Positions 12,497 to 38,628 of a DNA stretch of 54,990 bases are shown piece after piece. The stretch's first letter is position 1. Every line of letters starts with the position of its first letter. Below the pieces are notes generated by a model that was not told the origin of the DNA, did no database searches, and was given only the letters and a program-made list of their open reading frames with translations. Origin of the DNA: Pseudomonadota bacterium (lineage in GTDB: Bacteria > Pseudomonadota > Gammaproteobacteria > Burkholderiales > SG8-39). The position numbers and the translations under genes were made by a program. The DNA is taken from the NCBI GenBank assembly GCA_018241645.1, contig JAFEDL010000061.1, positions 1 through 54,990 on the forward strand, read 5' to 3'.

Positions 12497-12528
12497 GGGT
12501 TCCAGTTCTACTTTTTCGACAAAAAAAC

Positions 12529-12542: not shown

Positions 12543-12570
12543 GCTTAGGGCGGTTTCCTAAAGTTATAAC
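12541..12570 (+). promoter_or_regulatory. Candidate sigma-70 promoter of the secretin operon
   Basis: TTGCTT (12541-12546), an 18-base spacer and TATAAC (12565-12570) lie about 36 bases before the mshL ATG. The region is AT-rich against a GC-rich background. No GG-N10-GC sigma-54 motif was found here. Confidence 0.45.
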
Positions 12571-12606
12571 TATGGTATGCTTCGGCACCGGTTCAAGGAC
12601 GTGGGG

Positions 12607-14409: not shown

Positions 14410-14413
14410 GACC

Positions 14414-15853: not shown

Positions 15854-15933
15854 GGCCGCGGGGCACGCGGCCCGATGCCCTGACACACTCTGACTTCGGC
15901 CCGTCCCGAATGGCGGGGTATCATGTTAACCGT
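15853..15933 (+). other. Short gap with GC-rich hairpin between mshN and mshE
   Basis: An inverted repeat GGGCCGCG / CGCGGCCC directly follows the mshN stop, without a T-run. It could stabilise the upstream mRNA end. No convincing promoter is visible, so mshE is probably co-transcribed. Confidence 0.35.
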
Positions 15934-17643: not shown

Positions 17644-17694
17644 CGGCCGGCCCGCTCCCCGCACAGCAGCCAGCGCGAAAAGAGCCAGTCGCAC

Positions 17695-18900: not shown

Positions 18901-18912
18901 GGCGCTCGGGCA

Positions 18913-20508
18913 ATGTCGGATCGACGCCTTCTGTACTTCACCGCCGGCTCGCACCAGGTCTACCTCTGGCGCGCAGGCAGGCTTGAGCATGAGGCCACCT
19001 ACGCGCCGGACGACGCCGGCGTCGCGGCGTTCAGGGACTTTGCCAAATTGCATGCAAAGTCGCTCTACTACGTTCTTGCAGACCTCGCGGGAGAGGACTT
19101 CCACGACGAGATGATTCCCTGGCTGCGCGGGGGAGACCGCCAGGCGGTGATTGAAAGACGCCTGGCCCAGCGCTATCGGGACACCCGCCTTGCCGCGACG
19201 ATCTCGCTGGGTTCGGTTGCATTGGCGGGTGAGCGTCGCAACGAGCGCCTGTTGCTTGCCTCTTTCACCAACACCCAGCAGTTCTCCCCGTGGCTTGACG
19301 CCCTGTCGGAAGCCGGCGCCAAGCTCGCCGGCGTCTATTCGGTGCCTCTGCTGGCCCCGGCGCTGGCATCGCGGATAGCGGGCAAGATTGGCCTGAAGAG
19401 CAGCCACGTGTTCGTCGTCTCGCTGAACAGCGCCGGGTTGCGCCAAAGCTATGTAGAGGACGGGAAGCTCCGATTTGCCCGACTGGAGCGTACCGTTGAA
19501 ATGGGCGCGGAGGCCCTTGCCGCTTTTGTCAGGTCGGAGACTCTGAGGCTCATGCAATACCTTTCGAGCCTGCGGGTGCTCCCCCGCGACGGCCCCCCGA
19601 TCACTGCAATCATCATTGCACCACGGGGACAGCGGGAGGTCTTCGAAAGATCCCTGCCATCCGACGCCAGACTCAATTTCCGCACGGTCGATCTTGGCGA
19701 AGCCGCAAAATTTGCGGGAGTCAAGGACGCCGGTGGAATCGGGGCAGAGCAGCTTTATCTGCATCTGGCCGCGAAGCGGGCACCCAAGGAGCAGTTTGCG
19801 CGCAGCGAGGATCGCCGAGGCTATCTCTTCTGGCAGTTGCAACGCGGGGTTGTAGCCGCGGGGGCCTTCGGGCTGGCCGGCTGCCTGGCCTTCGCCGGTT
19901 ACAAATGGCTCGACGTGGTGACCGTGCGCGACCGGACCGATCTTCAGCAACGCGAAGCGCAAAGCGCGGAGCAGGAATACCGGCGGATCACCTCCACGTT
20001 TCCGGTAACCCAGACGACCACCGAGAACCTGAAGGCCACGGTGAACGAATTTCGCGCGATGGCGGCACGTTCGGCCGAGCCCGGCCCTTCGTTCGTACAC
20101 CTTTCCAAGGCGCTCGAGCAGTTTCCCCAGATCGAACTGGACCAGCTCATTTGGCAAGTTGATCGCCCCGGCGTCCTCGGGAAAAAGGCTGCGAGCGCGC
20201 CGGCGACGCCGGTTCCTTCGAATGCGCCCGCCCCTCCCACTGCAGCCGGTGCCGCATCGACCGACCTGGTGCAGGTATTGGAGATTTCCGGGCACGTTAG
20301 CGCGACCCAGAGATCGGACTATCGCGCCGTGACCGCGCAGGTCCAGCGCTTTGCGGACGCCCTGGTCAGCCAATCCTATGAAGTCCTGCGGACGCAACTC
20401 CCGTTTGACACGACCTCGGAAGGCACGCTTTCGGGAGACATCGGCTCCTCCGAGGACGGCGAAAATCCCCGCTTTACCATCACGGTCGCGAGAAGGCTGG
20501 GAAAGTGA
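18913..20508 (+). CDS. Fused PilM-PilN-like pilus assembly protein (MshI-like)
   Basis: A 531-residue protein that appears to join two proteins usually encoded separately. The N-terminal 300 residues resemble an actin-like PilM/GspL cytoplasmic domain, although the nucleotide-binding motifs are poorly conserved. One membrane helix follows (about 318-337, AAGAFGLAGCLAFAGYKWL), then a periplasmic coiled-coil and a PilN/GspL-like ferredoxin-type domain with a Pro/Ala-rich insert at about residue 425-445. It therefore has GspL-like topology in the place of MshI. The start at 18913 lies 12 bases after mshG, and the stop overlaps the next gene (GTGA). Confidence 0.75.
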   Translation: MSDRRLLYFTAGSHQVYLWRAGRLEHEATYAPDDAGVAAFRDFAKLHAKSLYYVLADLAGEDFHDEMIPWLRGGDRQAVIERRLAQRYRDTRLAATISLGSVALAGERRNERLLLASFTNTQQFSPWLDALSEAGAKLAGVYSVPLLAPALASRIAGKIGLKSSHVFVVSLNSAGLRQSYVEDGKLRFARLERTVEMGAEALAAFVRSETLRLMQYLSSLRVLPRDGPPITAIIIAPRGQREVFERSLPSDARLNFRTVDLGEAAKFAGVKDAGGIGAEQLYLHLAAKRAPKEQFARSEDRRGYLFWQLQRGVVAAGAFGLAGCLAFAGYKWLDVVTVRDRTDLQQREAQSAEQEYRRITSTFPVTQTTTENLKATVNEFRAMAARSAEPGPSFVHLSKALEQFPQIELDQLIWQVDRPGVLGKKAASAPATPVPSNAPAPPTAAGAASTDLVQVLEISGHVSATQRSDYRAVTAQVQRFADALVSQSYEVLRTQLPFDTTSEGTLSGDIGSSEDGENPRFTITVARRLGK

Positions 20509-21122
20509 ACCTGACCGCCGCCGACTTCAAGAAGCTGGTGCTGCCATTCGTAATGGCCGCCGCGCTGATCGCCGCGGGAGTCGCGCTGATCTGGTACGTC
20601 GACCGGCAACTGGCCGAGGCGAACGCCCGATTCACCGCCGTGAAGTCCGATCGTGTGCAGGCGAGGGAGCGCCTCGAGCGGATCAGCGAGGAGGAGCGCG
20701 AGGTCAAGGAACGGATAGAGGTGTACCGCCGGTTGCGCGCCCTCCGGATCATCGGGAAGGAACGCCGGCTCGATTGGGTCGATGCGATTCAGCGCATCCG
20801 CACTTCTCGCGAAATGCTGGACGTGCGGTACAAGATTGATCCACAGAGGGTGCTGGTTTCGCTCCCCGGAAAGCCAGGAACTGTCGACTTCAACGTGAGC
20901 AGCATGCGACTGGAACTCGCATTGCTGCATGAGGGCGACCTGCTCGGCTTTCTCGACGACCTTCGCGACGCCGGTGGCGCGTACGTATCGGTCAAGAGGT
21001 GCGTCGTCACGAGGTCCGGCACGGCGGGCCAGCCGCCAGGCGCGGCAACGCTTACCCCCCGCTTGCGCGCCGAATGCCAGATCGACCTCATCACCGTGCT
21101 CGATGCGGGAGCGAAGACATGA
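20505..21122 (+). CDS. PilO/MshJ-like inner-membrane assembly protein
   Basis: A 205-residue bitopic protein: one N-terminal membrane helix (about 10-30, LVLPFVMAAALIAAGVALIW), a periplasmic coiled coil (about 35-75) and a small C-terminal domain (about 100-200). This matches PilO/GspM/MshJ architecture, and such proteins pair with PilN-like partners. The GTG start overlaps the stop of the PilM-PilN fusion, and the stop overlaps the next gene by four bases. Sequence similarity in this family is low, so the call relies on topology and position. Confidence 0.72.
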   Translation: MNLTAADFKKLVLPFVMAAALIAAGVALIWYVDRQLAEANARFTAVKSDRVQARERLERISEEEREVKERIEVYRRLRALRIIGKERRLDWVDAIQRIRTSREMLDVRYKIDPQRVLVSLPGKPGTVDFNVSSMRLELALLHEGDLLGFLDDLRDAGGAYVSVKRCVVTRSGTAGQPPGAATLTPRLRAECQIDLITVLDAGAKT

Positions 21123-21568
21123 GGATCCGCGCGTTATTGTTGTCTTTGGCAGCGAGCGGCCTGCTTTCGTCGCCGGCGTTGGGCGAAGATCTCGGCCGCC
21201 TGTTCTTCACGCCGGAGCAGCGCAGTGCTCTTGATGCAAGGCGCAAAGCCCGGATACCGGACAAACCTTCAGCGGTCGTGGTCGAATCGCCCGTTACCCG
21301 CGTCGACGGTTTCGTTTCCCGACGGGGGGGAAAATCCACTACCTGGGTCAATGGCGAGGCGGTTCCGGAAGGCACGCAGCCGGAGGGACTGCGAGTCCGG
21401 CCCAAGCGAAACGATACCGGCCGGGTCATTGTGAATATCGGCGAATCGGAGACCCCGGTGGACCTCAAGATCGGGCAGTCCTTTGACCGCGGCACCGGCG
21501 AGGTTCGCGATTCGCTGGAAGGAGGCGACATAAAAATAAATCGCCGCGGACCTGGCGGGGGCAAGTAA
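21119..21568 (+). CDS. PilP/MshK-like periplasmic protein
   Basis: A 149-residue secreted protein with a signal peptide (IRALLLSLAASGLLSSPALG, cleavage likely before EDLGR). The mature part starts LGRLFFTPEQRSALDARRKA, the stretch that marks MshK/PilP-like proteins in pilus loci, then a small beta domain (FVSRRGGKSTTWVNGEAVPE). It probably links the PilO-like subunit to the secretin. The open frame extends upstream to 20999, but the ATG at 21119 provides the signal peptide and overlaps the previous stop (ATGA). Confidence 0.75.
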   Translation: MRIRALLLSLAASGLLSSPALGEDLGRLFFTPEQRSALDARRKARIPDKPSAVVVESPVTRVDGFVSRRGGKSTTWVNGEAVPEGTQPEGLRVRPKRNDTGRVIVNIGESETPVDLKIGQSFDRGTGEVRDSLEGGDIKINRRGPGGGK

Positions 21569-23469
21569 TGCGAACTGTGCCGTTGGCGCGACGGCAAAGC
21601 GGCGCCGCATTGCTTATATTCGCACTGATACTGGTGCTCGGCACTTCCTGGATGCTTGTCTCTGCGCTAAATAGGGCGAGCTCCGAAAAAGCCGCCGCAT
21701 CGCGTACACAAAATGGCGAACTTCTCAGACAGGCAAAGGATGCGCTCATCGGATATGTCGTGACTCATGCGGCAACTACCAATCCCTCCGACCTCGATTA
21801 CAAGCATCCTGGCCGGTTTCCATGTCCGGAAGCCACCGCCGACGCGGGCACCACAAACGAAGGATACGCCGCGGCCAATTGCACACTGCCGGCCATCGGG
21901 CGATTGCCTTGGCGCACGCTCGGGATGTCCAAACCCCTCGACAATTCAGGAGAGCCCCTTTGGTATGTGCTGTCCACAGGATGGACCGGCACGGCAGGCA
22001 CCTTCAAAATCAACAGCGACACGCCGGGAAATCTGACCCTAGACGGCACTGCAAATTGGGCCATCGCCCTCATTGTCGCGCCCGGGCCGGCGATCACGCT
22101 GAGCCCGAACAGCAGCCAAATCTCTGCCGGGTGCGAGGCACGCAGCCAGACCCGGAGCGGCGCCTTGGACTATAGGAACTATCTCGAATGCGAAAATGCA
22201 TCGTCTCCGGTTGATTCAAATTTTGTTACAAGTGTCACGGGCAATGCGACAAATGAAGTATTTAACGACCAAGTCGTTGCCGTCCGAACAACCGATCTTA
22301 TGCCGGGACTGGATGGCGTCATAGCGACCCGGATAGCAAGAGACCAGGACTTGACCTCTGCGCTGGCGGGCGTGTACGCGACTGCGGACTGGAACGCATC
22401 GAGCGGGACGCGGTGGCTGCCATTTGCTGCAACTCTTGGCGACGCGAGTGCCGCCGGAGCGGCCGGGACCAGGGCCGGTATTTTGCCAATGACCTATTCA
22501 AAGCAATCTAACGGGTCGGACTGCGTGGTCAGCGCATCCGACCCGCGTTGCAACCCGACATTTGTCTCGTGGAAGTCGGGCACAGGCCTCACATTCACAG
22601 CGCCCCTTCCTATTACGACAACGGCGCGGTATTCGGTCTACGGCGCCTATCCGTCCATGAGCGTGCCCGCATCCAGTCCCTTCATTACGGTAACCGAGGT
22701 TGCCAACAGCAATACCACTCGGGGCACTCTCGCCAAACTCGATTGCAGTGCGACTACTTCTACACGGATTTCATGCGCCATAACGTACGGGCGATCGTGC
22801 GGTTCCTACCCGTCGCCATGCACCAGTCAGACGGTGCAGCCACGTATACGTCTCACGGTGCGCGCGCAGAATGTCGCAAAGGCATTCAAGGCATTTGAGA
22901 TCGACTATGTAACACTGTTCGGGGCAACCGTTGCAACAAACTACTTTAAAAGCCGATCAACGGCGACTTCATATGGAGCATCACCGCTCGGTGTGCTCAG
23001 GAGCGACGGAGACGCGGACATCACCACTGAATGGCTACTGCCCAGCAGGTCATGCACTGTTTCCCAGTGCTACACGTACACGGTAAATATTCCGATTGCG
23101 CTGCTGGTGGACCATTCGGTGGTTAACAGTGCGGACACTGTCAATGGCTGGTTCGTGATGAATGACTGGCACCGGGTCACGTACTACGCTGTCGGAAGCG
23201 GATACGCGCCGGGAGGTCCCGGAAACTGTTCGACCTCCACCTGTATCAAGATCACGGGGGGCACAATCTCCCCGGATTACCGTGGAGCGATCCTCGTTTA
23301 CGCAGGCCGTGACCTGATGACCCCTGCACCAAGCCCGGCACGGCGCCCCAGTTCCACTATTACGCACTATCTTGAAGGTGCGAATGCAGTTGTCGACGAC
23401 ACATACGAGACTAAATCCGCAAGTACGACTTTTAACGACCGGCTGATAAACCTCTATCCTTATCCATGA
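21568..23469 (+). CDS. Large PilX-like pilus protein, possible tip adhesin
   Basis: A 633-residue exported protein. Its N-terminus (RRQSGAALLIFALILVLGTS) resembles PilX/GspK-like minor pilins: a hydrophobic helix after a glycine but no glutamate at position 5. The body contains GRFPCPEA and then a long, Ser/Thr-rich, beta-like domain with 14 cysteines, an even number that suits disulfides. It is far longer than PilX or GspK proteins (usually 150-350), so I infer a pilus-tip or adhesive role, comparable in position to MshP/MshQ. Base composition in 22.2-23.5 kb is visibly more AT-rich than neighbours, typical of a fast-evolving or acquired surface protein. It overlaps both neighbours. Confidence 0.7.
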   Translation: MRTVPLARRQSGAALLIFALILVLGTSWMLVSALNRASSEKAAASRTQNGELLRQAKDALIGYVVTHAATTNPSDLDYKHPGRFPCPEATADAGTTNEGYAAANCTLPAIGRLPWRTLGMSKPLDNSGEPLWYVLSTGWTGTAGTFKINSDTPGNLTLDGTANWAIALIVAPGPAITLSPNSSQISAGCEARSQTRSGALDYRNYLECENASSPVDSNFVTSVTGNATNEVFNDQVVAVRTTDLMPGLDGVIATRIARDQDLTSALAGVYATADWNASSGTRWLPFAATLGDASAAGAAGTRAGILPMTYSKQSNGSDCVVSASDPRCNPTFVSWKSGTGLTFTAPLPITTTARYSVYGAYPSMSVPASSPFITVTEVANSNTTRGTLAKLDCSATTSTRISCAITYGRSCGSYPSPCTSQTVQPRIRLTVRAQNVAKAFKAFEIDYVTLFGATVATNYFKSRSTATSYGASPLGVLRSDGDADITTEWLLPSRSCTVSQCYTYTVNIPIALLVDHSVVNSADTVNGWFVMNDWHRVTYYAVGSGYAPGGPGNCSTSTCIKITGGTISPDYRGAILVYAGRDLMTPAPSPARRPSSTITHYLEGANAVVDDTYETKSASTTFNDRLINLYPYP

Positions 23470-24239
23470 CCGCGCGTCCGATCTATACCAAAAGTGACGC
23501 GCATCCCAGCCAGATGGGGTTTTCGCTGGTCGAGATGGCGATTGTCCTGGCCATTGTCGGCGTCCTTGTCGGCACCATGATGATGACGCTCTCCGCGCAG
23601 GTGGACCAACGCAATTTTAACGAAACCCAGCGCCGCCTCGAGTCCGCAAGGGAGGCGCTCCTTGCTTTCGCCATCTTGAATGGCAGGCTCCCCTGCCCTG
23701 CTGCGCCTGCGACTGGCGGCGCGAGCGACGGGCAGGAATCTCCAACTGGCGGCGGATCGTGCACCAACTATCTGAATGGTTACCTGCCCGCACGCACGCT
23801 TGCAATTCAGCCTTCGGATTCCTCGGGCTACGCGGTAGATGCCTGGGGAAACAGGATCCGCTATGTCGTATCCAACGGATCGAGTCCGCATTTCACCGAC
23901 TCCACAACACTGCGGACCAATGGCATCACTACGCAACCCACAACGCTCAAGATTTGCACCACGTCGACCGGTATTTCGTCTTCCACTTGCGCGTCTACGG
24001 CAACATACGAAGTCGATTCAAGCACATCCATTGCAGCCATAATATACTCCGTCGGTAAGAACGGCGCTCTTACTGCAACGGGCGCCGATGAACTGGCCAA
24101 CCTGAACAATGACGCGGTTTTTGTCGACCATACTCCGACGCCGTCCACCGCGACAAACGGAGAGTTCGACGACATGTTCGTCTGGATCACCACAGGAGCA
24201 CTGTACGGGCGCTTGATCGCCGCCGGACTGTTGCCCTGA
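23466..24239 (+). CDS. Minor prepilin with type III (class III) signal
   Basis: A 257-residue prepilin. The cleavage site is MG|FSLVEMAIVLAIVG, with Glu5 present; the leader is long at about 18 residues because translation starts at the ATG overlapping the previous stop (ATGA). Residues about 70-75 contain GRLPCPAA, a motif shared with the preceding large PilX-like protein, and later WGNRIRYVVSN, typical of this minor-pilin group. The pair probably assembles together at the pilus tip. No prepilin peptidase gene is in the window. Confidence 0.85.
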   Translation: MTARPIYTKSDAHPSQMGFSLVEMAIVLAIVGVLVGTMMMTLSAQVDQRNFNETQRRLESAREALLAFAILNGRLPCPAAPATGGASDGQESPTGGGSCTNYLNGYLPARTLAIQPSDSSGYAVDAWGNRIRYVVSNGSSPHFTDSTTLRTNGITTQPTTLKICTTSTGISSSTCASTATYEVDSSTSIAAIIYSVGKNGALTATGADELANLNNDAVFVDHTPTPSTATNGEFDDMFVWITTGALYGRLIAAGLLP

Positions 24240-24241: not shown

Positions 24242-24257
24242 TGCATTCAAGAATGCA
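24242..24257. promoter_or_regulatory. Perfect palindrome overlapping the adenylate cyclase start codon
   Basis: TGCATTC and GAATGCA form a perfect 7-base inverted repeat with a 2-base spacer; the right arm contains the ATG at 24253. It could be an operator or restrict ribosome access, but dyads of this size also occur by chance. Confidence 0.3.
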
Positions 24258-25554
24258 CGCGCTATCCAGGCTTTATACCCGTCTTCGAACAGCAGGCATC
24301 GAGCCCGGGGATTCAGAGGAACTGCGCCTCAAGAAGGTCGTCCTGCTATTTGCCTGCGGCCTGATGATCGCCGCGGCCGCGATCTGGCTCGCGCTGTACC
24401 AGGCGCTCGGCCTGCCGGTTTCCTCCTCATGGCCGCTGGCGTTTCAAGTCGCATCCATGGTGACGCTCATCTACTACCTGGTCACGCTAAATTTCGACGT
24501 CTTTCGCGCGGTACAACTGGGAATGTTCCTGTTTGTGCCGTTCGCAGTGCAGTGGTCCATCGGGAATTTCGTCTCGGCGAGCGGGATGATCCTCTGGGGG
24601 CTGCTTGCCCCGGTGGGTGCGGTGCTGCTGTACTCGGCGCGCGAATCCATTCCGTGGATCGCGGCGTATATCGTGCTGACCCTCGCGAGCGGTTACGTCG
24701 ACTACCAGCTGGCCTGGCTGCCGCCCAAGGCGCCGAAGGTCCCCCTTGCGACCAGCGTGGTGTTCTTCGCCCTGAATTTCGCCGCCATGTCGACCCTCGT
24801 ATACGCATTGCTGCGATTCGCGTTTGTCGAGCGCGAGAAGTCCCGCGTCCGGCTCGAGGAGGCGCACGCGCGGCTCGGCGAAGAACAGGCACGTTCCGAG
24901 CGCCTCCTGCTGAACGTTCTCCCCGAACCGATTGCCGTCCGGCTCAAACGCATGGAATCTCCGATTGCGGACGGCTTCCCGGAGGTGACGGTCATGTTTG
25001 CGGACATCGTGAATTTCACCCGGATGGCCGGCGTACTCGAGCCCGCGCAGATATTTTCGCTGCTCAATCGACTGTTCTCCGCATTTGACGCGGCAGCCGA
25101 AAAGCTCGGGCTGGAGAAGATCAAGACCATAGGCGATGCGTATATGGTGGCCGGCGGCCTGGTCCCGGGTCAGACCGGGCGCGAAGCGGCGATCGCCGAG
25201 CTCGCGTTCGCCATGCGCGAGATAACGGGACGGGAGTTCGCCCTGGAAGGCCAGCCTTTGAAGTTGCGGATCGGCATCGCATCTGGACCGGTCGTCGCCG
25301 GCGTGGTCGGCACCAAGAAATTTATCTACGACCTGTGGGGCGATACCGTGAACATCGCCAGCCGGCTCACCAGCGAGAGCGAGCCCGGGCGAATCCAGGT
25401 GGACGAAAGGACCCATGGGCTTCTGGCCGGGAAGTATGTGTTCACGGCGCCGCGCACCCTCAACCTGAAAGGCAAGGGATATACCACGGTATACGAGCTT
25501 GCCGGACGGGCGGATGAAGGATCCGCACCTGTCGATGGAAGTGCATCGGCCTGA
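24253..25554 (+). CDS. Membrane-bound class III adenylate cyclase
   Basis: A 433-residue protein with about six N-terminal membrane segments (residues 28-200), a short linker, and a C-terminal class III cyclase domain (about 235-420). Metal aspartates are present in MFADIVNFT and in KTIGDAYMV. The adenine-selecting pair is Lys in EKIKTIGDAY and Asp in DLWGDTVNIASR, and the transition-state Asn/Arg are in VNIASR, so I predict cAMP rather than cGMP synthesis. It lies 13 bases after the minor prepilin on the same strand, so it is probably expressed with the pilus genes. The ribosome site is weak. Confidence 0.92.
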   Translation: MHALSRLYTRLRTAGIEPGDSEELRLKKVVLLFACGLMIAAAAIWLALYQALGLPVSSSWPLAFQVASMVTLIYYLVTLNFDVFRAVQLGMFLFVPFAVQWSIGNFVSASGMILWGLLAPVGAVLLYSARESIPWIAAYIVLTLASGYVDYQLAWLPPKAPKVPLATSVVFFALNFAAMSTLVYALLRFAFVEREKSRVRLEEAHARLGEEQARSERLLLNVLPEPIAVRLKRMESPIADGFPEVTVMFADIVNFTRMAGVLEPAQIFSLLNRLFSAFDAAAEKLGLEKIKTIGDAYMVAGGLVPGQTGREAAIAELAFAMREITGREFALEGQPLKLRIGIASGPVVAGVVGTKKFIYDLWGDTVNIASRLTSESEPGRIQVDERTHGLLAGKYVFTAPRTLNLKGKGYTTVYELAGRADEGSAPVDGSASA

Positions 25555-25573: not shown

Positions 25574-27322
25574 TCAGGGGCCGGGGTTGAGCTTGATCGC
25601 CCCGGCCAGCGCGAAGCAGACTTCTCCGTCGCTATTGCGCGCCAGGGAAAGGGTGTATCCGTTGGCTTCCGCATGGCGCGCCGCCTGGAACAGGCCGATG
25701 CCCAAGCCCGAATTGGATCGCACCGGTGCACGAAAGATCAGCTTTTCCAGCTCAGGCGGGACAGCGCGTCCCGAATCGCAGACCCGGAAATCCAGGGACT
25801 CTCCGCAGTCGAGGCTTACGCGGATCTTGATGTCCGGGTCGGAACTCCTTTTGTTGAGCGCGTTCTGGATCAGGTTGTCGGCGATGCTGTCAGCCAGGGA
25901 ACGCAGCAACGTCACTCCGGGACGGGGCGCATATTTCTCAAATTCGACGCCGTGCGCCGAGTATTGGCGCCTGAGGCTATCCCACCAAGCGTCTGCGGTT
26001 ATAAATTGCTCGCTTTCGCTCTGGGGGCGCTGAAGCTTTTCGAGCGTGGCGGACAATCGTTGCGCGATTACGGGCAGTTGCCTCCGGATGAGCGCCTGCA
26101 ATTCCGGGGAGTAGTCGCGTCCTGTTTCCTGCCTTGCGACCGATACGAGGACATTCAGCGACTGCAGGAGATTCTTGACGTCATGTGTCATGCGCGCACC
26201 GGTCTCGTGCACCGCCTGCATGTAGCTCTGCTGCTGCAATTTTTGTTCTCGCTGCTTGGCGAGGTAGAACTCCCCGAGCAGCTGGCCGAGCAAGTGCAGG
26301 TGCCATTGCAGGGCCGGGCTGGTCCGGTGGCGCGAATATATCGTCAACGAGAGTTCGCTGTTCTCATATTCGACCCTGAATGGTGTCTTCTGGCCGTGTT
26401 CACCACGATCATTCGACACGCGCCATTCCGCCCCCGATACCCAGGACAGCCGGGCAAGGCTGGCGATGCTTTCCGCCAGGAAGCGGTCCGGACGGGACTC
26501 CACGCTGGAGAGTTCCGCAAGGAAGTACAGCCACTTTTCGACCGGCAATCCGATGGAAAAGAGGTATCTGGAAAAGAATACGTTCAGCCCGGCGAAGCCC
26601 GTGTGAGGATTCCACGCCAAACCGATGATGAAAACGGTGCCTGCGATGAGGAATACCGTATAGGTGAGCGCCTCAAGGTAATTCGTACGGCCAAGGGTCA
26701 TGAAAGTGAAACTTCCCAGAATCACTACCCCGAGAACGAGCATCAGGAAGATGCTGTAGAAGAAATCGATGACTTGCGGCGCCTCCGCCGGATCAGGTTC
26801 TGCAGGCAGCAACGCCATGACCACGAACAATATTGGCAGGAGGTATTGCGCGGCCATCCGCAGCTCGGGGGTGATCTCCTTTTGGGGTGCGATTTCAGGC
26901 AGGATCACAATCGCCAGGAGCGCCAGCAGGTAGAACAGCACCAAAAGATAGAAACGCCGCTGCCAGCGCGCCTGGTGCAGGAACACCTTGCCGCCGACCA
27001 GTCCGGCCAGCACGCACACCCAGAACACCAGCAACCAGGCGTTCAGCCAGAGCATCACGGCCACTGCGCCGAGGGAAATGAACCCGAGTTGTGTCGCCGA
27101 GACCTGATACTGGCCGCGCAGAAAGGGCTGCCATATCAGCAGCAGGCCGAGGTGCGCCAGCAGGAGGGATCGCGCCCAGTTGTCCGCCACCCCGCGCAGC
27201 GCCGCGATGTGAAGCAGCACGAGCATCGCGATGACCACGAACCTGCCGTAATTCTGGGAGAATCCGAGTGCGGAATTGGCCAGCCGGGTGAACAACGGTG
27301 GTGGAAAAGAGTCTGCTTGCAT
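25574..27322 (-). CDS. Membrane sensor histidine kinase, PrsK-like
   Basis: A 582-residue kinase (from ATG 27322; the open frame reaches 27403). The N-terminal 250 residues hold about eight membrane helices, followed by a GAF-like region (about 265-350) and the kinase core: H-box THDVKNLLQSLN with His at about 380, N-box DNLIQNALNKRS, G1 VCDSGRAVP and G2 GLGIGLFQAARHAEANG. The HDxKN H-box and multi-helix plus GAF layout match PrsK of the PEP-CTERM regulatory pair. The only response regulator in the window is the PrsR-like gene at 9500, so I infer they form a pair. It is convergent with the cyclase (19-base gap) and divergent from the ABC permease. Confidence 0.9.
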   Translation of the reverse strand: MQADSFPPPLFTRLANSALGFSQNYGRFVVIAMLVLLHIAALRGVADNWARSLLLAHLGLLLIWQPFLRGQYQVSATQLGFISLGAVAVMLWLNAWLLVFWVCVLAGLVGGKVFLHQARWQRRFYLLVLFYLLALLAIVILPEIAPQKEITPELRMAAQYLLPILFVVMALLPAEPDPAEAPQVIDFFYSIFLMLVLGVVILGSFTFMTLGRTNYLEALTYTVFLIAGTVFIIGLAWNPHTGFAGLNVFFSRYLFSIGLPVEKWLYFLAELSSVESRPDRFLAESIASLARLSWVSGAEWRVSNDRGEHGQKTPFRVEYENSELSLTIYSRHRTSPALQWHLHLLGQLLGEFYLAKQREQKLQQQSYMQAVHETGARMTHDVKNLLQSLNVLVSVARQETGRDYSPELQALIRRQLPVIAQRLSATLEKLQRPQSESEQFITADAWWDSLRRQYSAHGVEFEKYAPRPGVTLLRSLADSIADNLIQNALNKRSSDPDIKIRVSLDCGESLDFRVCDSGRAVPPELEKLIFRAPVRSNSGLGIGLFQAARHAEANGYTLSLARNSDGEVCFALAGAIKLNPGP

Positions 27323-27444
27323 CCTCGGCACGCCGCGATTAGGGTTCCGGTACTGCGCTGCCTCGACCCCGAGGGGCGCTCGTCGGTGCTTCAACCAGCT
27401 CAACGTTTCTTGCGAATGTTATATGCAGTTGCCCGACTGACGCC

Positions 27445-28212
27445 ATGCGCGCCGTACTGATCCTCGGCCGCTTCGTGGTGCTCGAGGCGCGCCGCACCGG
27501 TATGCCGTGGCTGTTCGCATGCGCGGCAGGCGCAGGCTTGGCCCTTGCAGGCTTTCTTTCCCAGCTTGCCCTGACCGAAAGCGTCGCGCTCCAGGCGAGC
27601 GTGCTCGGAGCGTTCTTTCGCCTTTGCGCCGTCTTCCTGATGACCGCTTTCGTCATTACAAGCATGGTACGGGAGTCCAACGACAAGGGCGTGGAATTGC
27701 TGCTTTCCATGCCGATCTCCCGGAGCCAGTATTACCTAGGGAAGCTTTCGGGATTTGTGGCTTGCGGCGCAGCGATCGCCGGTGCATTTTCGGCGCTGAT
27801 GCTTGTCTGGAGTCCGCCCCTCGCCGTTGCCGCTTGGTTCGTGTCGCTCACTTTCGAGCTTGCGCTAATGGCGGCCGTGGGCCTGTTCTTCGTGCTCACC
27901 CTGTCGCAGGTTGTGCCCGCTCTTGCAGCGTCTGCAAGCCTGTACTTGCTGGGCCGGGTGATTGCGTCGGTACAGGCAGTCTCGTCGGGACCCCTGCTCG
28001 ATGAGGACAGCATCCTCCAGAAGCTGGCGACTTGGGGCGTTGACGCTGTGGCCCTCCTGCTGCCACCGCTTGACCAGGCAACGCAGACAGTGTGGCTCCT
28101 CTACGGGGCTCCATCCGCAGGCGAAATGCTGCGCGTAGTCGGGACGTTGCTTCTGTACGGCGCCTTGGTTTCCGCGGCCGGGCTGTTTGACTTTCACCGG
28201 CGCAACCTTTGA
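27445..28212 (+). CDS. ABC-2 type permease of the pilus locus
   Basis: A 255-residue inner-membrane protein with six hydrophobic segments and the ABC-2 signature region MVRESNDKGVELLLSMPISRSQYYLGKLSG. There is no neighbouring ATPase. The orphan ATPase at 8764, at the opposite end of the locus, is the obvious partner. In Myxococcus, PilH (ATPase) and PilI (permease) are needed for type IV pili, and this could be an equivalent. Its stop overlaps the TTG start of the next gene (TTGA), so the two are translationally coupled. Confidence 0.85.
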   Translation: MRAVLILGRFVVLEARRTGMPWLFACAAGAGLALAGFLSQLALTESVALQASVLGAFFRLCAVFLMTAFVITSMVRESNDKGVELLLSMPISRSQYYLGKLSGFVACGAAIAGAFSALMLVWSPPLAVAAWFVSLTFELALMAAVGLFFVLTLSQVVPALAASASLYLLGRVIASVQAVSSGPLLDEDSILQKLATWGVDAVALLLPPLDQATQTVWLLYGAPSAGEMLRVVGTLLLYGALVSAAGLFDFHRRNL

Positions 28213-28949
28213 CAAGGTCGGAGCGTCCCGTAGGGCAGGTTCCGCGCTGGGTCTTGGTGGTCCTGGCGCTGTGCCTCCTAGCCCAGATCAGCCTGAAGGC
28301 CGGAATGCGGCCCGGCATCCCGGAAGCCGACGACCTTCCCCCTCCGCCACGTCCCGAGATGCTTCGCATAGCGGGGCTTGGGGAGCCCGCAACGCTTGCC
28401 CGTATGGCGCTACTTTATCTGCAGACGTTTGACTATCACGGCACCAACGCCCTGCCATACAGAAAGCTCGACTATCACAAGCTCATCGGTTGGCTGGACG
28501 CGATTCAGCAGCTGGATCCTTTAAGTGAGTATCCACTTTTCATTTCTACCAGGGTTTACGCGGACGTTCAAGACCCGAACCGGCAAAGAATGATGCTGGA
28601 GTTCATCTATGAGCAATTTCTGCTTGATCCCAACCGGCGCTGGCAGTGGGCTGCTCATGCCGCTCTGGTGGCCAAGCACCGGCTGAAAGACTTGCCCCTG
28701 GCCCTGAAATACGCCAAAGCTGTCGATAAGCTTACAACTGTGCCCGATGTGCCGCTGTGGGCAAAGCAAATGGAAATATTCATCCTCGAGGACATGAACG
28801 AACTCGAAGCAGCCAGAATCATGTTGGGAGGTTTGCTCGAAGCGGGTCCCATCAACGATCCTGGCGAACGGAGGTTTCTCGAAAATCGGCTCAGGGAGAT
28901 GGAGCAACGCCTTCGATCGGAACCCTCCTCGAACGGGAAAGCACGTTGA
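28209..28949 (+). CDS. Membrane-anchored TPR-like protein next to the ABC permease
   Basis: A 246-residue protein of no family I can name with confidence. It starts with TTG at 28209, overlapping the permease stop. One membrane helix lies near residues 13-30 (WVLVVLALCLLAQISLKAG), followed by a Pro-rich stretch and an alpha-helical, TPR-like periplasmic part (LARMALLYLQTFDYHGTNAL; ALKYAKAVDKLTTVPDVPLW). The placement beside an ABC permease recalls PilG in the pilGHI cluster of Myxococcus. The role is inferred from context only. Confidence 0.65.
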   Translation: MTRSERPVGQVPRWVLVVLALCLLAQISLKAGMRPGIPEADDLPPPPRPEMLRIAGLGEPATLARMALLYLQTFDYHGTNALPYRKLDYHKLIGWLDAIQQLDPLSEYPLFISTRVYADVQDPNRQRMMLEFIYEQFLLDPNRRWQWAAHAALVAKHRLKDLPLALKYAKAVDKLTTVPDVPLWAKQMEIFILEDMNELEAARIMLGGLLEAGPINDPGERRFLENRLREMEQRLRSEPSSNGKAR

Positions 28950-28979
28950 ACACTCGACGGCGCTGACGGAAAATCGTCA

Positions 28980-28993
28980 CATTTTTGACAATT
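28980..28993 (+). promoter_or_regulatory. 14-base box upstream of the prepilin promoter, copy of 12529
   Basis: CATTTTTGACAATT, identical to 12529-12542, ends 37 bases before the -24 element of the sigma-54 promoter. The box is embedded in GTCA/TGAC half-sites at 28976, 28986, 28996 and 29008. No -10 sequence follows at a usable distance, so it is not simply a sigma-70 -35. Candidate upstream activating site. Confidence 0.55.
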
Positions 28994-29029
28994 TCTGACC
29001 ATTTCGCGTCATTCCAGGCCCATATCGAT

Positions 29030-29045
29030 GGGCACGGAAGTTGCA
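29030..29045 (+). promoter_or_regulatory. Sigma-54 (-24/-12) promoter of the major prepilin gene
   Basis: The sequence GGGCAC, five bases, TTGCA gives GG at 29031-29032 and GC at 29043-29044 with exactly ten bases between, a near-consensus RpoN promoter. Expected transcription start is about 29056, leaving a leader of about 28 bases with ribosome site GGAGGAG (29070-29076) before the ATG at 29084. Such a promoter requires an NtrC-type activator; the PrsR-like gene at 9500 has the needed GAFTGA loop. Confidence 0.88.
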
Positions 29046-29083
29046 ATAACTGAGGCATCGAGTAATTTCGGAGGAGCAAGTTC

Positions 29084-29728
29084 ATGAAAAGTCGCCAAAA
29101 AGGCTTTACCTTGGTCGAGATCGCAATCGTTCTGGTCATCATTGGCCTGCTGCTCGGCGGGATCCTGAAGGGCCAGGAGATGATCGTTCAGGCCAAGATC
29201 AAGAACGCCATGGCCGATTTCTCCGGAATCTCGGCGGCCTACCACGGGTACCAGGACCGCTACCGCGCAATCCCAGGCGACGACGCCAATGCGGCGACAC
29301 GCTGGGCGGGTGCCTCGATTTCTCCGACCGCGGGCCAAGCCGGGAACGGCGTCGTTCAGGGTCTGTATAACAGTACGACTGCCACTGACGAATCACGCCT
29401 ATGGTGGGATCACTTGCGCCGCGCGGGGTTTGTAGCAGGGAATGGCTCACAGCAGCCAACCAACGCATTTACGGGCATGCTGGGGGTGCAGACTGGGGAC
29501 GGCGCCGGCGCATCGGTACTCGGCGGCATTTCTAGTCTTATGATCTGCTCAGCCAACATCCCGGACAAGGTTGCGATCGCCATCGACACCTCGATGGACG
29601 ATGGCGTCATGATGACCGGCGGCGTGCGCGGCCAACTGCAGTCAGCACCCAATCCGGCCATTGGCGTTGCGAGCGGTACATACGCTGAAACCGGGACGAA
29701 TATATACACGCTCTGCCGCCAGATCTAA
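29084..29728 (+). CDS. Major type IV prepilin of the MSHA-like pilus
   Basis: A 214-residue prepilin with a short classical leader, MKSRQKG|FTLVEIAIVLVIIG, cleaved after glycine with Glu5 present. A conserved region follows (YHGYQDRYRAIPGDDANAAT). Two cysteines, in LMICSAN and near the end in YTLCRQI, can form the C-terminal disulfide loop. Strong ribosome site, own sigma-54 promoter and own terminator show it is a separately controlled, probably highly expressed unit, which is why I call it the major pilin. At 214 residues it is longer than typical pilins (about 150-180). The adjacent PglL-type enzyme suggests it may be O-glycosylated. Confidence 0.92.
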   Translation: MKSRQKGFTLVEIAIVLVIIGLLLGGILKGQEMIVQAKIKNAMADFSGISAAYHGYQDRYRAIPGDDANAATRWAGASISPTAGQAGNGVVQGLYNSTTATDESRLWWDHLRRAGFVAGNGSQQPTNAFTGMLGVQTGDGAGASVLGGISSLMICSANIPDKVAIAIDTSMDDGVMMTGGVRGQLQSAPNPAIGVASGTYAETGTNIYTLCRQI

Positions 29729-29749
29729 CTGAAGGCAAGGCTAGTGTTG

Positions 29750-29777
29750 AAAGGCCAGCCGCAAGGCTGGCCTTTTT
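29750..29777 (+). terminator. Intrinsic terminator after the major prepilin gene
   Basis: An 11-base-pair perfect stem (AAAGGCCAGCC / GGCTGGCCTTT) with a GCAA tetraloop, followed by further Ts. It lies 22 bases after the prepilin stop and separates it from the glycosyltransferase gene. Confidence 0.93.
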
Positions 29778-29812
29778 CATTCAGACTCGGGTTTGGCCAA
29801 CCGCATGCCGAA

Positions 29813-31579
29813 ATGACCGGTACGAATTCACCCCGCTGGAATCCGCGAGCCGCAAGCCTGCTGCTCGTGTCGGCCATGTGCCTGCTTCCATTCCTGCTGC
29901 CAAGGCACTTTCCGCCGCTGCGGACCTTCTACGACGAATGGATTGCATTCGCCCTCGGAACGGGCGCCATAGGCTTCGCGGCGTTTGCGCGACGCAACCG
30001 GGGCGTTATCGTCCCCCATATTTCAGCCTGGATGGGCGCATTCGCAGTGCTTTTATGCGCGCGCGCTTTCTCCGGGTTGCCGGCCTATCCGCAAGGGCCG
30101 CTTCTATGGGCGACCTACATCACCTTCGCTGCCTTACTCGTCATCCTCGGCCACGAGCTGGCGGCGCATTTTGGGCGGGAGCGCGTATGCGACATGCTCG
30201 CATCGTTCCTGCTGCTCGGCGCGTTGTTGAACTCGATCTCCGGCGTGCTTCAGGTCGTGGGCATACCGCGTCAGATAGATGCCTTTTTTTCTTATCTGAG
30301 CGGCACTCGCGCCATCGGAAACATCGGACAGGCAAACCTATACGCAAACTATCTTGCAGTGGGAGCGGCGTCGCTGGCCTATCTTTTTGCGCGCGGCAAG
30401 GTCGGCCGCAGGACCGGGTTTGCAGCGGGATTCCTGCTGCTGACCGGCGCAGCGCTGGCGGCCTCGCGCTCTTCCGCGCTTTATTCAGCCCTCTTCGCGA
30501 TCCTGGGATACGTCGCCATGCGCGATACGCGGGGTGCAGCAGGAAAGCGCATCGGGATGGTCGCCATTTCTATGGCCGTCGCGGGCGTGCTGATGCAGTG
30601 GATCATCCCCATGCTGTTAAAGGCTGTCGGCTTTTCAATTGAAGGTGGTTTTGACAGAGATTCAGTGGAATGGGAGTCTGGTAGGGATGAATCTACGCAT
30701 TTGCGCATACTCGGGTGGCAGCTAGCTTGGCGCCTGTTCGCGACCTCTTCTTGGTTGGGGGTGGGTCCAGGAGAGTTTGCGGGAGCGGGGTTCATCTACG
30801 GACTTCCTCTGGAATTAGCGGCAAACGAACTTTGGACTTCGCCCCACAACCTGGTGCTGCAACTCCTCTCCGAAACCGGCCTTGCAGGCACCGCCATGGT
30901 CGGGTTCGGAGTCTGGACCTGGATGCGCCGCGCAATTCCGCAGTACTTCCACGCGCCGACACCGGCCGGATGGTGGTTGCTGTCCTGTGCGGGCGTGGAA
31001 GGCGTGCATGCGCTCCTCGAATATCCTTTTTGGTACGCGCATTTCCTTGCGTTGACGGCACTGCTGCTGGGCGTGGGGTCGAGCGGTACATACGTTGTGC
31101 GCCCGCTGCCAGCGCGGACAGCTCTTGCGTCCATTGCGCTCATCGGTGCGATCCTGCTGGGCGTCAACCTGCGCGACTACTTCCGGTTCGAGCTCGCAAG
31201 CCCCGCGTACGCGGGGCGATCACTTGCCTCGAACGCCGATCTGCAGCGCGATCTTGACGTTCTGGCGCGGTTGAACGGCGGTCTGCTGGCCCCGCGGGCA
31301 GAGCTCTTCCTGTTCCTGTCCGTGCCCGTCGACGCCGACGGGCTGGCCGAGAAGATCGAGATCGGCAATCGCGTCATGCGCACCTGGCCGCTGCGTGAGG
31401 TGGTATTTCGCCAATGCATCTTCCTCGCACTTGCCGGGCGCGATGCCGAGGCCCAGTCCCTGCTCAGGCAGGCCAGAATCACTTTCGCAAACCGCGCAAA
31501 GGCAATTCGCGAGCTCGTCCATTCAGCGCCGGAAAAAGCCCGCAGGGCGCTGGAGCCTGCGCTCCTGGATCCGCGATAG
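29813..31579 (+). CDS. PglL-type protein O-oligosaccharyltransferase (Wzy_C family)
   Basis: A 588-residue polytopic inner-membrane protein with about twelve hydrophobic segments. It has the O-OTase features IGNIGQANLYANYLAVGAAS and, in the large periplasmic loop, SPHNLVLQLLSETGLAG with the conserved histidine. These enzymes transfer lipid-linked glycans to periplasmic proteins such as pilins; the related O-antigen ligases use lipid A, but the motifs and the pilin neighbour favour PglL/PilO. I start it at ATG 29813 because the open frame before it reads through the terminator hairpin. The ribosome site is weak. No glycan-synthesis genes are nearby. Confidence 0.87.
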   Translation: MTGTNSPRWNPRAASLLLVSAMCLLPFLLPRHFPPLRTFYDEWIAFALGTGAIGFAAFARRNRGVIVPHISAWMGAFAVLLCARAFSGLPAYPQGPLLWATYITFAALLVILGHELAAHFGRERVCDMLASFLLLGALLNSISGVLQVVGIPRQIDAFFSYLSGTRAIGNIGQANLYANYLAVGAASLAYLFARGKVGRRTGFAAGFLLLTGAALAASRSSALYSALFAILGYVAMRDTRGAAGKRIGMVAISMAVAGVLMQWIIPMLLKAVGFSIEGGFDRDSVEWESGRDESTHLRILGWQLAWRLFATSSWLGVGPGEFAGAGFIYGLPLELAANELWTSPHNLVLQLLSETGLAGTAMVGFGVWTWMRRAIPQYFHAPTPAGWWLLSCAGVEGVHALLEYPFWYAHFLALTALLLGVGSSGTYVVRPLPARTALASIALIGAILLGVNLRDYFRFELASPAYAGRSLASNADLQRDLDVLARLNGGLLAPRAELFLFLSVPVDADGLAEKIEIGNRVMRTWPLREVVFRQCIFLALAGRDAEAQSLLRQARITFANRAKAIRELVHSAPEKARRALEPALLDPR

Positions 31580-31604: not shown

Positions 31605-33581
31605 TCAGCCCTGCAATAGGCGGATCTCTGCAGCGGCGAGGGCTTCGGGGACGCCGAGCAGCACCACCACATCGTTGGCCTCGAGCCGGAGCTCGGCCGC
31701 CGCCGCGAGTTTCCCTTCACCGGCGCGCCTGACAGCCTTGATCTGCGCGCCGCTCTCCTCCAGCCTGAGTTCGGCTATGGACATGCCTACCGCATGCGCG
31801 GATGCCGCCAGCGTTACCGAGTGAAGCCGCGGCTGCGCGGAATCTCCGGTTTCGCTTTCATCGCCCGCGCCATGGAAAAGACCCCGCATCAGCCCGTAGT
31901 GTTCGTCGCGCACCAGGCGCAGCCGGCGCATGACGCGCGACAAAGGCACCCCGATCCAGACCAGAGTATGGGATGCCAGCATCAGGCCGGATTCGAGCGC
32001 TTCCGGCACCACCTCCGATGCGCCTGCAGCATGCAACTTCTCGATCTCGTCTTCCTCCCTGGCGCGCACGATTACCGGAATTGAGGGATTCAGGGCGTGG
32101 ATGTTCGCCAGCACGCGAACCGAAGCGTCCGCATCGGCAAACGTGATCACCACGGCGGCCGCCCTCGACAGACCGGCGGCGGTAAGTGCCTCGCGCCTCG
32201 AGCAATCCGCAAACACCACCGTATCCCCGGCGAGGGCCGCCTCGCGCACACGCTCCGGATCCAGGTCGAGCGCCACATACCGGATTCCCTCGGCGTCGAG
32301 CATGCGCGCCAGCCGTTGCCCGTTGCGTCCATACCCGAGGATCACGACGTGGCGCTCCGATTCGATCGACTGCACTGCGATTCGATGGAGTTCCAGCGAA
32401 CGCAGCATCCATTCCGACGCCGAGAAGCGCATCACGATCCTGTCGCTGGCGGCAATGATGAACGGACTTGCCAGCATCGAAAGGATCATCGCCGCCAGCA
32501 ACGCCTGCGTCATCCCTGGCGACACAAAGCCCGCACCGCCTGCGTTCGCCAGCAGCACAAAGCCGAACTCCCCCGCCTGCGCGAGGCATAGCGCCGTGCG
32601 CAATGCCGTGCCCTGGGCGCCACCGAGGGCGCGCGCAAGCAGTACGATCAGCCCGAACTTCAGCAGCACGATGAGCAGCACCCCGAGTCCGACGGCCCAC
32701 CATCTTTCGGCCACCGTAGGCAGGTCCAGCATCATGCCGACGGTGACGAAGAACAGTCCCAGCAGGATGTCGCGAAACGGCTTGATGTCCTCTTCGACCT
32801 GGTAGCGATATTCGGTTTCGGAGATCAGCATGCCGGCCAGGAACGCGCCCAGCGCCAGCGAAAGGCCCGCGAGGGAGGTGAGGTACGCGAGCCCCAGCGT
32901 GATGAACAGCACGTTCAGGACGAACAGTTCATTCGAACGCCGTCGCGCAACGATGTTGAACCAGAACCGCATCAGGCGGGGGCCGGCGAGGATCAAGGCG
33001 CCGAGCACCACTGCCGCCTTGACGAGCGCGAGTGCAACTGCCGTGCCGATTTCCTCGGGCGGCCGCCCGAGCGCCGGAATGACGATCAGCAGCGGCACCA
33101 CCGCCAGGTCCTGGAACAGGAGCACGCCAATGATCTCGCGCCCGTGCGGGGTGTCCAGCTCCAGCCGCTCGGCCAGAAGCTTCGAGACGATCGCCGTGGA
33201 CGACATGGCTATGGCCCCGCCAAAAACGAGGCTTGCCTGCCACGAGGCGCCCAGCGAGATGCCTAGCGCCATCCCCACCAACATCGTGGCCAGGACCTGC
33301 GCCAGTCCCAGGCCGAAGACCACTTTTCGCATCGCCATCAGTTTCGGCAGGCTGAACTCCAGGCCGATGGAAAACATCAGGAAGACGATGCCGAATTCGG
33401 CCAGGTGCCGCGTTTCGCTGGTATCCGGTATCAGGCCAAGCGCGTGCGGACCGAGCACCACACCCGTGACCAGGTAACCGAGCATGGGTGGCAAGTGCAG
33501 GCTGCGGAATCCGACGACCGCAAACACTGCGCAGGCGAGCAGGGCCAGGACCGGCTGAAGTGAGATGCCTGCTGCTTCCAT
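31605..33581 (-). CDS. Kef-type monovalent cation:proton antiporter (CPA2 family)
   Basis: A 658-residue inner-membrane antiporter. Residues 1-385 form the membrane domain with about twelve helices (GYLVTGVVLGPHALGLIPD; FGGAIAMSSTAIVSKLLAE). A TrkA-N/RCK nucleotide-binding domain (about 412-530; VVILGYGRNGQRLARMLDAE) and a TrkA-C domain (about 570-650) follow. The layout fits YbaL/KefB-like potassium:proton exchangers. In E. coli the gene before kdsD is a different cation antiporter (yrbG), transcribed with kdsD; here the Kef-type gene is divergent from kdsD. Confidence 0.9.
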   Translation of the reverse strand: MEAAGISLQPVLALLACAVFAVVGFRSLHLPPMLGYLVTGVVLGPHALGLIPDTSETRHLAEFGIVFLMFSIGLEFSLPKLMAMRKVVFGLGLAQVLATMLVGMALGISLGASWQASLVFGGAIAMSSTAIVSKLLAERLELDTPHGREIIGVLLFQDLAVVPLLIVIPALGRPPEEIGTAVALALVKAAVVLGALILAGPRLMRFWFNIVARRRSNELFVLNVLFITLGLAYLTSLAGLSLALGAFLAGMLISETEYRYQVEEDIKPFRDILLGLFFVTVGMMLDLPTVAERWWAVGLGVLLIVLLKFGLIVLLARALGGAQGTALRTALCLAQAGEFGFVLLANAGGAGFVSPGMTQALLAAMILSMLASPFIIAASDRIVMRFSASEWMLRSLELHRIAVQSIESERHVVILGYGRNGQRLARMLDAEGIRYVALDLDPERVREAALAGDTVVFADCSRREALTAAGLSRAAAVVITFADADASVRVLANIHALNPSIPVIVRAREEDEIEKLHAAGASEVVPEALESGLMLASHTLVWIGVPLSRVMRRLRLVRDEHYGLMRGLFHGAGDESETGDSAQPRLHSVTLAASAHAVGMSIAELRLEESGAQIKAVRRAGEGKLAAAAELRLEANDVVVLLGVPEALAAAEIRLLQG

Positions 33582-37185: not shown

Positions 37186-38628
37186 ATGAAGCCGACACTC
37201 CAGTTCCGGCTCTCCCAGCACCTAACGCTGACCCCGCAGCTGCAGCAGTCGATACGACTGCTGCAGTTGTCGACGGTCGAGCTGAACCAGGAGATCGAGC
37301 GGATGCTGATGGAAAACCCGGTCCTGGAGCGGGAGGACGCGGAGGATGGGCTGACGCCGCCGGGCACATATGCGGCGCAGGACACTCCTGCGCCGGGCAC
37401 TGCCGAGTCCGCACCCGCGCCTTCCAGCGACGCGCCCGAACCCGGCGGGGACGAGTGGCAGCCCGATTTCTCCGCATCACCACGCACCGGCAGCGACGAC
37501 GACGAGGATGGGGACAGGACCTTCGTCGCACCCGATACCCTGTCCCTACGCCAGCACCTCAACGAACAGCTTTCGCTCACCAACCTCCCGCGTCGCGACC
37601 GGGCCCTGATCGGCATGCTGATCGACGCCCTCGACGACGACGGCTACCTGACCCAGCCGCTCGAGGAGATCGCGCAGCTGCTGCCTCCGGAGGCGGATGC
37701 CGACATCGAGGACCTCGGCATCGCGCTGCGCCACCTGCAGAACATGGAGCCGGCCGGCGTGGGCGCGCGCTCGCCGAGCGAATGCCTGTTGCTGCAGATC
37801 CGCGCGCTGGTGCCGGAATCCGAGGCGGAAGCACAGGTCGCGAAACTCGCAGCAACGATCGCCGAACGCCACCTCGAATTGCTCGCGCAACGCGATTATC
37901 CGCGCCTCCGGCAACTCACCGGCGCGGGCGACGATGCCCTGCGCGCGGCGCAGCGCCTGATCCTGAGGCTGAACCCGCATCCCGGGGCGGCATTCTCGAA
38001 TGTCGAAACACGGTATGTCGTGCCGGACGTGATCGTACGCCGGGTCAAGGGGGTATGGCGTGCAAGCCTCAACCCGGAGGCGATGCCGAAACTGCGCATC
38101 AACCGCCTGTACGCGTCGCTCCTTTCCGGGAACCGCAACAGCACGGGCTCGATGTCGGGGCAGCTGCAGGAAGCCCGCTGGCTGATCAAGAACGTGCAGC
38201 AGCGGTTCGACACCATCCTCCGCGTCTCCCAGGCGATCATCGACCGCCAGCGCCATTTCTTCGAGCACGGCGAAGTCGCAATGCGCCCGATGGTCCTGCG
38301 CGAAATTGCCGAAACCCTCGGCCTGCACGAAAGCACCATTTCGCGGGTCACGACGCAGAAATACATGGCAACGCCCCGCGGGACCTACGAACTGAAGTAT
38401 TTTTTCGGCAGCCATGTCGCGACCGAGACCGGCGGAGCATGCTCGGCCACGGCCATTCGCGCCCTGATCAAGCAGCTTGTCGCGTCCGAGGACACGAAAA
38501 CGCCCCTGTCCGACTCCCGCATCTCGAAAATCCTCGGCCAACAGGGTATCGTGGTGGCACGGCGGACCATCGCGAAGTACCGCGAGGCCCTGCAGATTCC
38601 GCCGGTCAATCTGCGCAAGTCGTTGTAG
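37186..38628 (+). CDS. rpoN: RNA polymerase sigma-54 factor RpoN
   Basis: Sigma-54 directs RNA polymerase to -24/-12 promoters in partnership with AAA+ activators. The 480-residue protein has the Gln/Leu-rich region I (LQFRLSQHLTLTPQLQQSIR), an acidic region II (about 55-110), the core-binding and DNA-binding domains (VLREIAETLGLHESTISRVT) and the RpoN box in VARRTIAKYREAL. It is intact. In this window its clearest target is the prepilin promoter at 29030, and the activator is encoded at 9500. Confidence 0.97.
   Translation: MKPTLQFRLSQHLTLTPQLQQSIRLLQLSTVELNQEIERMLMENPVLEREDAEDGLTPPGTYAAQDTPAPGTAESAPAPSSDAPEPGGDEWQPDFSASPRTGSDDDEDGDRTFVAPDTLSLRQHLNEQLSLTNLPRRDRALIGMLIDALDDDGYLTQPLEEIAQLLPPEADADIEDLGIALRHLQNMEPAGVGARSPSECLLLQIRALVPESEAEAQVAKLAATIAERHLELLAQRDYPRLRQLTGAGDDALRAAQRLILRLNPHPGAAFSNVETRYVVPDVIVRRVKGVWRASLNPEAMPKLRINRLYASLLSGNRNSTGSMSGQLQEARWLIKNVQQRFDTILRVSQAIIDRQRHFFEHGEVAMRPMVLREIAETLGLHESTISRVTTQKYMATPRGTYELKYFFGSHVATETGGACSATAIRALIKQLVASEDTKTPLSDSRISKILGQQGIVVARRTIAKYREALQIPPVNLRKSL

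Follow-up and report, generated by a model that had tools for sequence, protein, structure and literature searches.

Putative sigma-54 control of the probable major pilin gene of an MSHA-like locus by a locus-encoded kinase and regulator

With which sigma factor is the pilin gene of an MSHA-like pilus locus transcribed in a Pseudomonadota bacterium (Gammaproteobacteria, Burkholderiales, SG8-39), and is the activator encoded in the same locus? That sigma-54 and a two-component system control the major subunit of T4aP is textbook knowledge. For mshA of Vibrio and Shewanella we know of no description of either kind of control, and our search of open-access papers on sigma-54 control of mshA or MSHA-type pili returned nothing on point. 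The window analysed here comprises 54,990 nucleotides (assembly GCA_018241645.1, contig JAFEDL010000061.1); the source genome is a fragmented assembly with a completeness of 91%. The relevant features are as follows.

9500-10939, plus strand: NtrC-type response regulator with REC domain, AAA+ domain with GAFTGA and Fis-type HTH; proposed activator
10967-24239, plus strand: MSHA-like assembly genes (Msh names beyond MshL given by position and resemblance)
25574-27403, minus strand: membrane histidine kinase, proposed partner of the regulator; start codon possibly the ATG near 27322
27445-28212, plus strand: ABC-2 permease, travels with the pilin
28209-28949, plus strand: TPR-like protein, travels with the pilin; no Pfam or NCBIfam match
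28944-28959, plus strand: distal palindrome of the enhancer, CGTTGAACACTCGACG, matching the consensus at 7 of 10 positions and centred about -105 from the predicted start
28964-28979, plus strand: proximal palindrome of the enhancer, TGACGGAAAATCGTCA, matching the consensus at 10 of 10 positions and centred at about -85
29030-29045, plus strand: sigma-54 -24/-12 promoter GGGCACGGAAGTTGCA, read directly from the sequence
29056, plus strand: predicted transcription start, 12 nt past the -12 C, inferred from sigma-54 geometry
29070-29075, plus strand: ribosome-binding site GGAGGA, read directly from the sequence
29084-29728, plus strand: probable major prepilin of the MSHA-like pilus, 214 aa, ATG at 29084
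29750-29777, plus strand: strong intrinsic terminator
37186-38628, plus strand: rpoN; no other sigma-54 gene was found in the assembly

The pilin transcription unit

The original prediction described a promoter with GG-N10-GC spacing, a ribosome site, a prepilin gene and a terminator, and all four were found in place. Direct reading of the promoter sequence locates the GG at 29031-29032 and, after ten nucleotides, the GC at 29043-29044, embedded in a TGGCAC/TTGC context; the site reaches a matrix score of 16.8 (maximum 18.7) and is separated from the prepilin ATG by 39 bp. The gene product carries the GFxxxE-type N-terminal cleavage/methylation motif of type IV prepilins and an N_methyl domain (PF07963, 34.1 bits; TIGR02532, 26.8 bits; both above cut-off). 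Judging from its position, its own promoter, the terminator and the tandem duplication it is probably the major pilin. An AlphaFold model computed from single-sequence input was set aside as useless (pLDDT 41.6). Downstream of the gene the perfect stem AAAGGCCAGCC-GCAA-GGCTGGCCTTT (29750-29775) is followed by T's, and the RNA fold of 29740-29790 amounts to -25.6 kcal/mol with a z-score of -4.1.

The unit had furthermore been called isolated. This description is good for its downstream end and holds in part only, because the scan found no terminator in the stretch that separates the pilin from the upstream gene (28209-28949), so that read-through from that gene may occur. The sole terminator-like match upstream of the pilin, 28964-28979, is itself an enhancer palindrome. 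A short, terminated pilin message is supported by the terminators present after many single or last pilins of relatives, while none was found between the tandem copies of the two loci checked, L002 and L003. No sigma-70-like site was found in a scan of 27300-30200.

The same assembly contains a second pilin copy (L074; G000:C120:29879-30520, minus strand) with 92% amino acid and 80% nucleotide identity. This copy is located beside dnaE2-type genes and has its own terminator, no sigma-54 site or enhancer and a TTGCTA-N17-TACTAT pair upstream; it may be a pilin that does not need RpoN, or else an artefact of binning. Three relatives have similar unlinked pilin copies without the sites (L094 in G008, L110 in G041 and L111 in G051).

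Conservation of the promoter and a tandem enhancer

Taken by itself the promoter string is not evidence, because the pattern TGGCACGN4TTGC with at most one mismatch has 70 matches in the genome versus 75 for the same pattern read backwards, and because an equal matrix score (16.8) is obtained inside the kefB coding sequence (33033-33048, minus strand). Being at chance level, a genome-wide pattern match was ruled out as evidence for the promoter. To judge from the comparison of homologous loci, it is the conservation of the predicted promoter and its place before the prepilin ATG, not the string, that make it significant.

For this comparison the loci of the pilin homologues of 61 genomes were fetched and the 300 bp upstream were scored with a sigma-54 matrix, built from the published consensus with weights of our own. 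Nearly every first pilin of the set is preceded by a GG-N10-GC site, mostly 38–45 bp before the ATG. Our tally covered those relatives, non-independent samples, that have the kinase and in which the region upstream of the first pilin is readable; the site is present in 32 of 32, at 37–96 bp (mostly about 40 bp) before the first pilin ATG; the weakest is that of G032 with a score of 9.3. Second tandem pilins almost always lack a sigma-54 site, G059 having one before each of its two copies. In other orders most pilins adjoining the kinase are likewise preceded by a site; none was in range before the minor prepilins of these loci, and some distant genomes with the kinase (L266, L272 and L273) showed no clear sigma-54 site. 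The promoter keeps a fixed place before the first pilin across homologous loci.

Alignment of the promoters unveiled two palindromes of the consensus TGWCG-N6-CGWCA, 20 bp apart from start to start, which represent a conserved candidate enhancer for an AAA+ activator. This element was newly found here, having been missed in the original prediction, and is the strongest evidence for the pilin circuit. With spacings of 15–26 allowed and a threshold of at least 15 of 20 matches per pair, the tandem palindrome was detected in 34 of 37 promoters versus 1 of 37 controls, for which the same DNA was read backwards. The spacing is exactly 20 in 29 of these 34 promoters, and 24 of the 34 enhancers begin 83–88 bp before position -26. 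In the window the distal palindrome is degenerate and the proximal one perfect, and a search of the genome with three mismatches allowed gives a single tandem site, the one at 28944-28979. Two helix turns between sites place two dimers on one face of the DNA, which is an ordinary layout for NtrC-type activators. Further tandem sites were noticed in relatives (e.g. G051 C4:194049) and discarded, no pilin/sigma-54 unit lying beside the one inspected.

These results bear directly on the possibility that the -24/-12 string is a product of chance and that the pilin is transcribed from a sigma-70 promoter or by read-through from the upstream operon. The chance-level count in the genome, the absence of a terminator before the pilin and two pilins without sigma-54 sites (the unlinked second copy and that of G049, see below) would fit such an explanation, but it accounts neither for position-specific conservation in dozens of genomes nor for a site that is absent at minor pilins and second tandem copies and linked to the enhancer. 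Taking also the lack of a sigma-70-like site in 27300-30200 into account, we regard it as very improbable and retain the sigma-54 promoter.

The local kinase and regulator

An NtrC-type regulator with an intact GAFTGA loop at 9500 had been named as the likely activator, and it is present. The gene follows an ABC ATPase as the first pilus gene of the assembly operon, and the loop is intact in 28 of 30 orthologues, the exceptions being L144, which reads GSFTGA, and L140 without the loop, whose genome also lacks the kinase. The proposed partner kinase is composed of about seven hydrophobic segments, a soluble sensory stretch and the kinase part, and about 15 kb separate the kinase gene from the regulator gene, one at either end of the pilus genes. 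Among 232 class-wide genomes 30 contain both, two the regulator only, none the kinase only and 200 neither; of the 61 relatives, those that have the kinase or the regulator nearly always have the partner too. Linkage alone does not explain this co-occurrence, because in several genomes kinase and regulator are unlinked, being located on different contigs or about 90–180 kb apart.

The relatives without the pair agree with this. Pair and site are jointly absent from G002, G005, G029, G040 and G049. G029 (L183) has kept the pilin, the TPR-like gene, the permease and a minor prepilin and lacks kinase, regulator and promoter, and in G002 and G005 the pilin follows a minor prepilin with neither the pair nor a sigma-54 site. 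In G049 (L105, 7666-9376) a soluble kinase with no evident membrane part and a REC-HTH regulator without the AAA+ domain that activation of sigma-54 requires are located between the TPR-like gene and the pilin; the pilin has no sigma-54 site and, as read by eye, a sigma-70-like one upstream instead. G049 is by all appearances a case of non-orthologous replacement of the kinase-regulator pair together with loss of the sigma-54 site. Two genomes are exceptions, G015 (L184) and G031 (L185), in which the site is kept with kinase and regulator gone and most pilus genes deleted; what is left of these eroded loci is the ABC ATPase, the pilin, still preceded by its sigma-54 site, and a fragment that is either a receiver domain or a TPR-like end. 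Overall, the site occurs in two of seven genomes without the kinase versus 32 of 32 with it, for which a simple hypergeometric estimate, uncorrected for kinship, yields about 4e-5. The predicted sigma-54 switch has been retained together with the kinase-regulator pair across dozens of bacterial families.

The sigma-54 promoter could be real and the palindromes nevertheless bound by an activator encoded elsewhere, the local pair having another job. The genome does hold more NtrC-family regulators, and in several genomes the regulator is not beside the pilin; against this, across the relatives and the class-wide set the regulator goes with both the kinase and the pilin site, pair and site disappear together in the five genomes named above, and the other regulators of the genome are of unrelated types. 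An activator from elsewhere is therefore unlikely in our view, and the local regulator remains the preferred candidate.

The presence of rpoN at 37186 in the same window, which had been noted together with the regulator, was confirmed as to position, and a special meaning of it was rejected. The gene belongs to the usual kdsD-lptCAB-rpoN-ptsN cluster, found beside the pilus locus in many families, and kefB-kdsD-lptCAB-rpoN-ptsN adjoins the pilin in most relatives read. Because G002 and G049 share this neighbourhood without a sigma-54 pilin promoter, the nearness of rpoN is generic, old synteny and not the sign of a self-contained circuit.

Conservation, co-occurrence, the enhancer and the relatives lacking both pair and site together argue for the central part of the original prediction, namely sigma-54 control of the pilin with a likely activator encoded in the locus. 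Very probably, the pilin is transcribed with sigma-54 and activated via the tandem palindromes by the local regulator, phosphorylated by the local kinase. RNA polymerase with sigma-54 would transcribe the pilin from the site at 29030-29045, being held there as a closed complex until the regulator acts. A signal at the membrane kinase would lead to phosphoryl transfer to the regulator, which would then bind, in the form of two dimers on the same side of the helix, to the palindromes at -105 and -85, assemble into an AAA+ ring and remodel sigma-54 through the GAFTGA loop, thereby opening the closed complex; the output would be the short, terminated pilin message. Two of these steps, binding of the regulator to the palindromes and its phosphorylation by the kinase, we infer from sequence. 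Since the top matches include no strong sigma-54-like site ahead of the assembly operon, the switch would act on subunit supply only, with the assembly genes not under this promoter type.

Relation to known pilus and sigma-54 circuits

The pair had been described as PrsK/PrsR-like. Haft et al. 2006 (PMC1569441) reported PrsK and PrsR along with sigma-54 sites that precede PEP-CTERM genes, the layout comprising a membrane kinase, a Fis-type regulator, a sigma-54 site, an enhancer about 63 nt upstream and single-gene units, with a PrsR motif ending in TTTACA; an RpoN-dependent PEP-CTERM gene was shown later (PMC9850573). The present circuit shares the membrane kinase, the Fis-type regulator and a sigma-54 site with enhancer before single genes, and both circuits were found by co-occurrence logic, but the target here is a pilin. 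A divergent PrsK/PrsR serving genes of the exosortase/PEP-CTERM type, with the pilin as a borrowed target, would agree with this architecture and with the alignment of the kinase to PrsK profiles, which at 98.3% probability spans the C-terminal two thirds with TM, sensory and kinase parts. The curated cut-offs of TIGR02915 and TIGR02916 were, however, missed by a wide margin (345.8 versus 502.6 bits and 59.4 versus 300), the kinase is only the 13th-best match to the PrsK model in its own genome, and no PrsR was found there. In the tree the regulator clade stands apart from 18 true PrsRs (100/100 split); its recognition helix reads NRTTLYSR versus SRPTLYD of PrsR, and the enhancer consists of TGTCG palindromes without the TTTACA-ended motif. 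Moreover, G051, G055 and G056 contain a true PrsR and the pilus-locus regulator as separate genes. The missed cut-offs, the separate clade and the different DNA site rule out PrsK/PrsR identity, leave a distant resemblance of the proposed likeness and reduce the divergent form to an explanation to which we attach next to no credence.

The pair described here has its functional analogue, as far as the comparison carries, in PilS/PilR. As in the PilS/PilR-RpoN-pilA circuits of the Pseudomonas aeruginosa and Myxococcus xanthus T4aP, the major pilin would be controlled by sigma-54 and a two-component system whose regulator is of the NtrC type, and the assembly genes are separate from the pilin. 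PilR sites contain TGT/GTCT elements (PMC6058289), to which the TGTC half-sites found here are not unlike. Unlike PilS/PilR, the present pair belongs to an MSHA-type locus and not to T4aP, its genes lie at two locus ends and not in tandem as pilS-pilR, and the palindromes are arranged in tandem with 20-bp spacing. A search of the kinase for a PAS domain gave no Pfam match, HATPase_c being the only one, and a divergent domain could escape Pfam. On the comparisons presented, the system is a real and widespread pilin circuit of the PilSR/RpoN sort. Two other candidates were dismissed: a response regulator at C66 considered as PilR, whose kinase-lipoprotein-regulator order resembles GlrK/GlrR, and the C166 regulator, which has no receiver context and adjoins a transporter.

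The genes at 10967-24239 (AAA ATPase, MshL-like secretin, MshN-like TPR protein, MshE-like ATPase, MshG-like and MshI/J-like proteins and minor prepilins) liken the locus to the MSHA loci of Vibrio and Shewanella, the secretin being closest to MshL among all secretin models with 237.4 bits for TIGR02519, below the cut-off of 250.2. Unlike in those loci, ABC transporter genes and a cyclase are woven in. In the M. xanthus pil cluster (pilGHI, PilSR) a pilin is likewise accompanied by a two-component pair and an ABC transporter within a single pilus locus; between PilG/H/I and the ABC and TPR-like genes here there is resemblance only.

PilS reportedly reads PilA. As a tentative proposal, which we consider possible and somewhat less than probable, the locus may represent an undescribed, ancient module for MSHA-type pili in much of the beta/gamma-proteobacteria, in which a split pair, the kinase by the pilin and the regulator by the assembly operon, would set pilin supply via the tandem-palindrome sigma-54 enhancer, the kinase possibly sensing either the linked ABC transporter or the pool of pilin.

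In the circuit described here the control logic known from T4aP recurs, to all appearances in many families, with a different kinase, another regulator clade and a defined DNA site. One short DNA site and one regulator offer a ready test of surface-pilus switching, and the site provides a computable signature for picking the true major pilin among the many prepilins of MSHA-like loci.

Several neighbouring genes may be mentioned in addition. The ABC ATPase (8760-9522), the ABC-2 permease and the TPR-like protein are interspersed among the pilus genes, and in many families they accompany the pilin. Between a minor prepilin and the kinase lies the gene of a membrane-anchored adenylate/guanylate cyclase (24253-25554), which many relatives have retained; it may connect the pilus with cyclic nucleotide signalling. 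Directly past the pilin terminator lies a Wzy_C/PglL-type O-oligosaccharyltransferase (about 29813-31579), which is present in part of the relatives only and may glycosylate the pilin.
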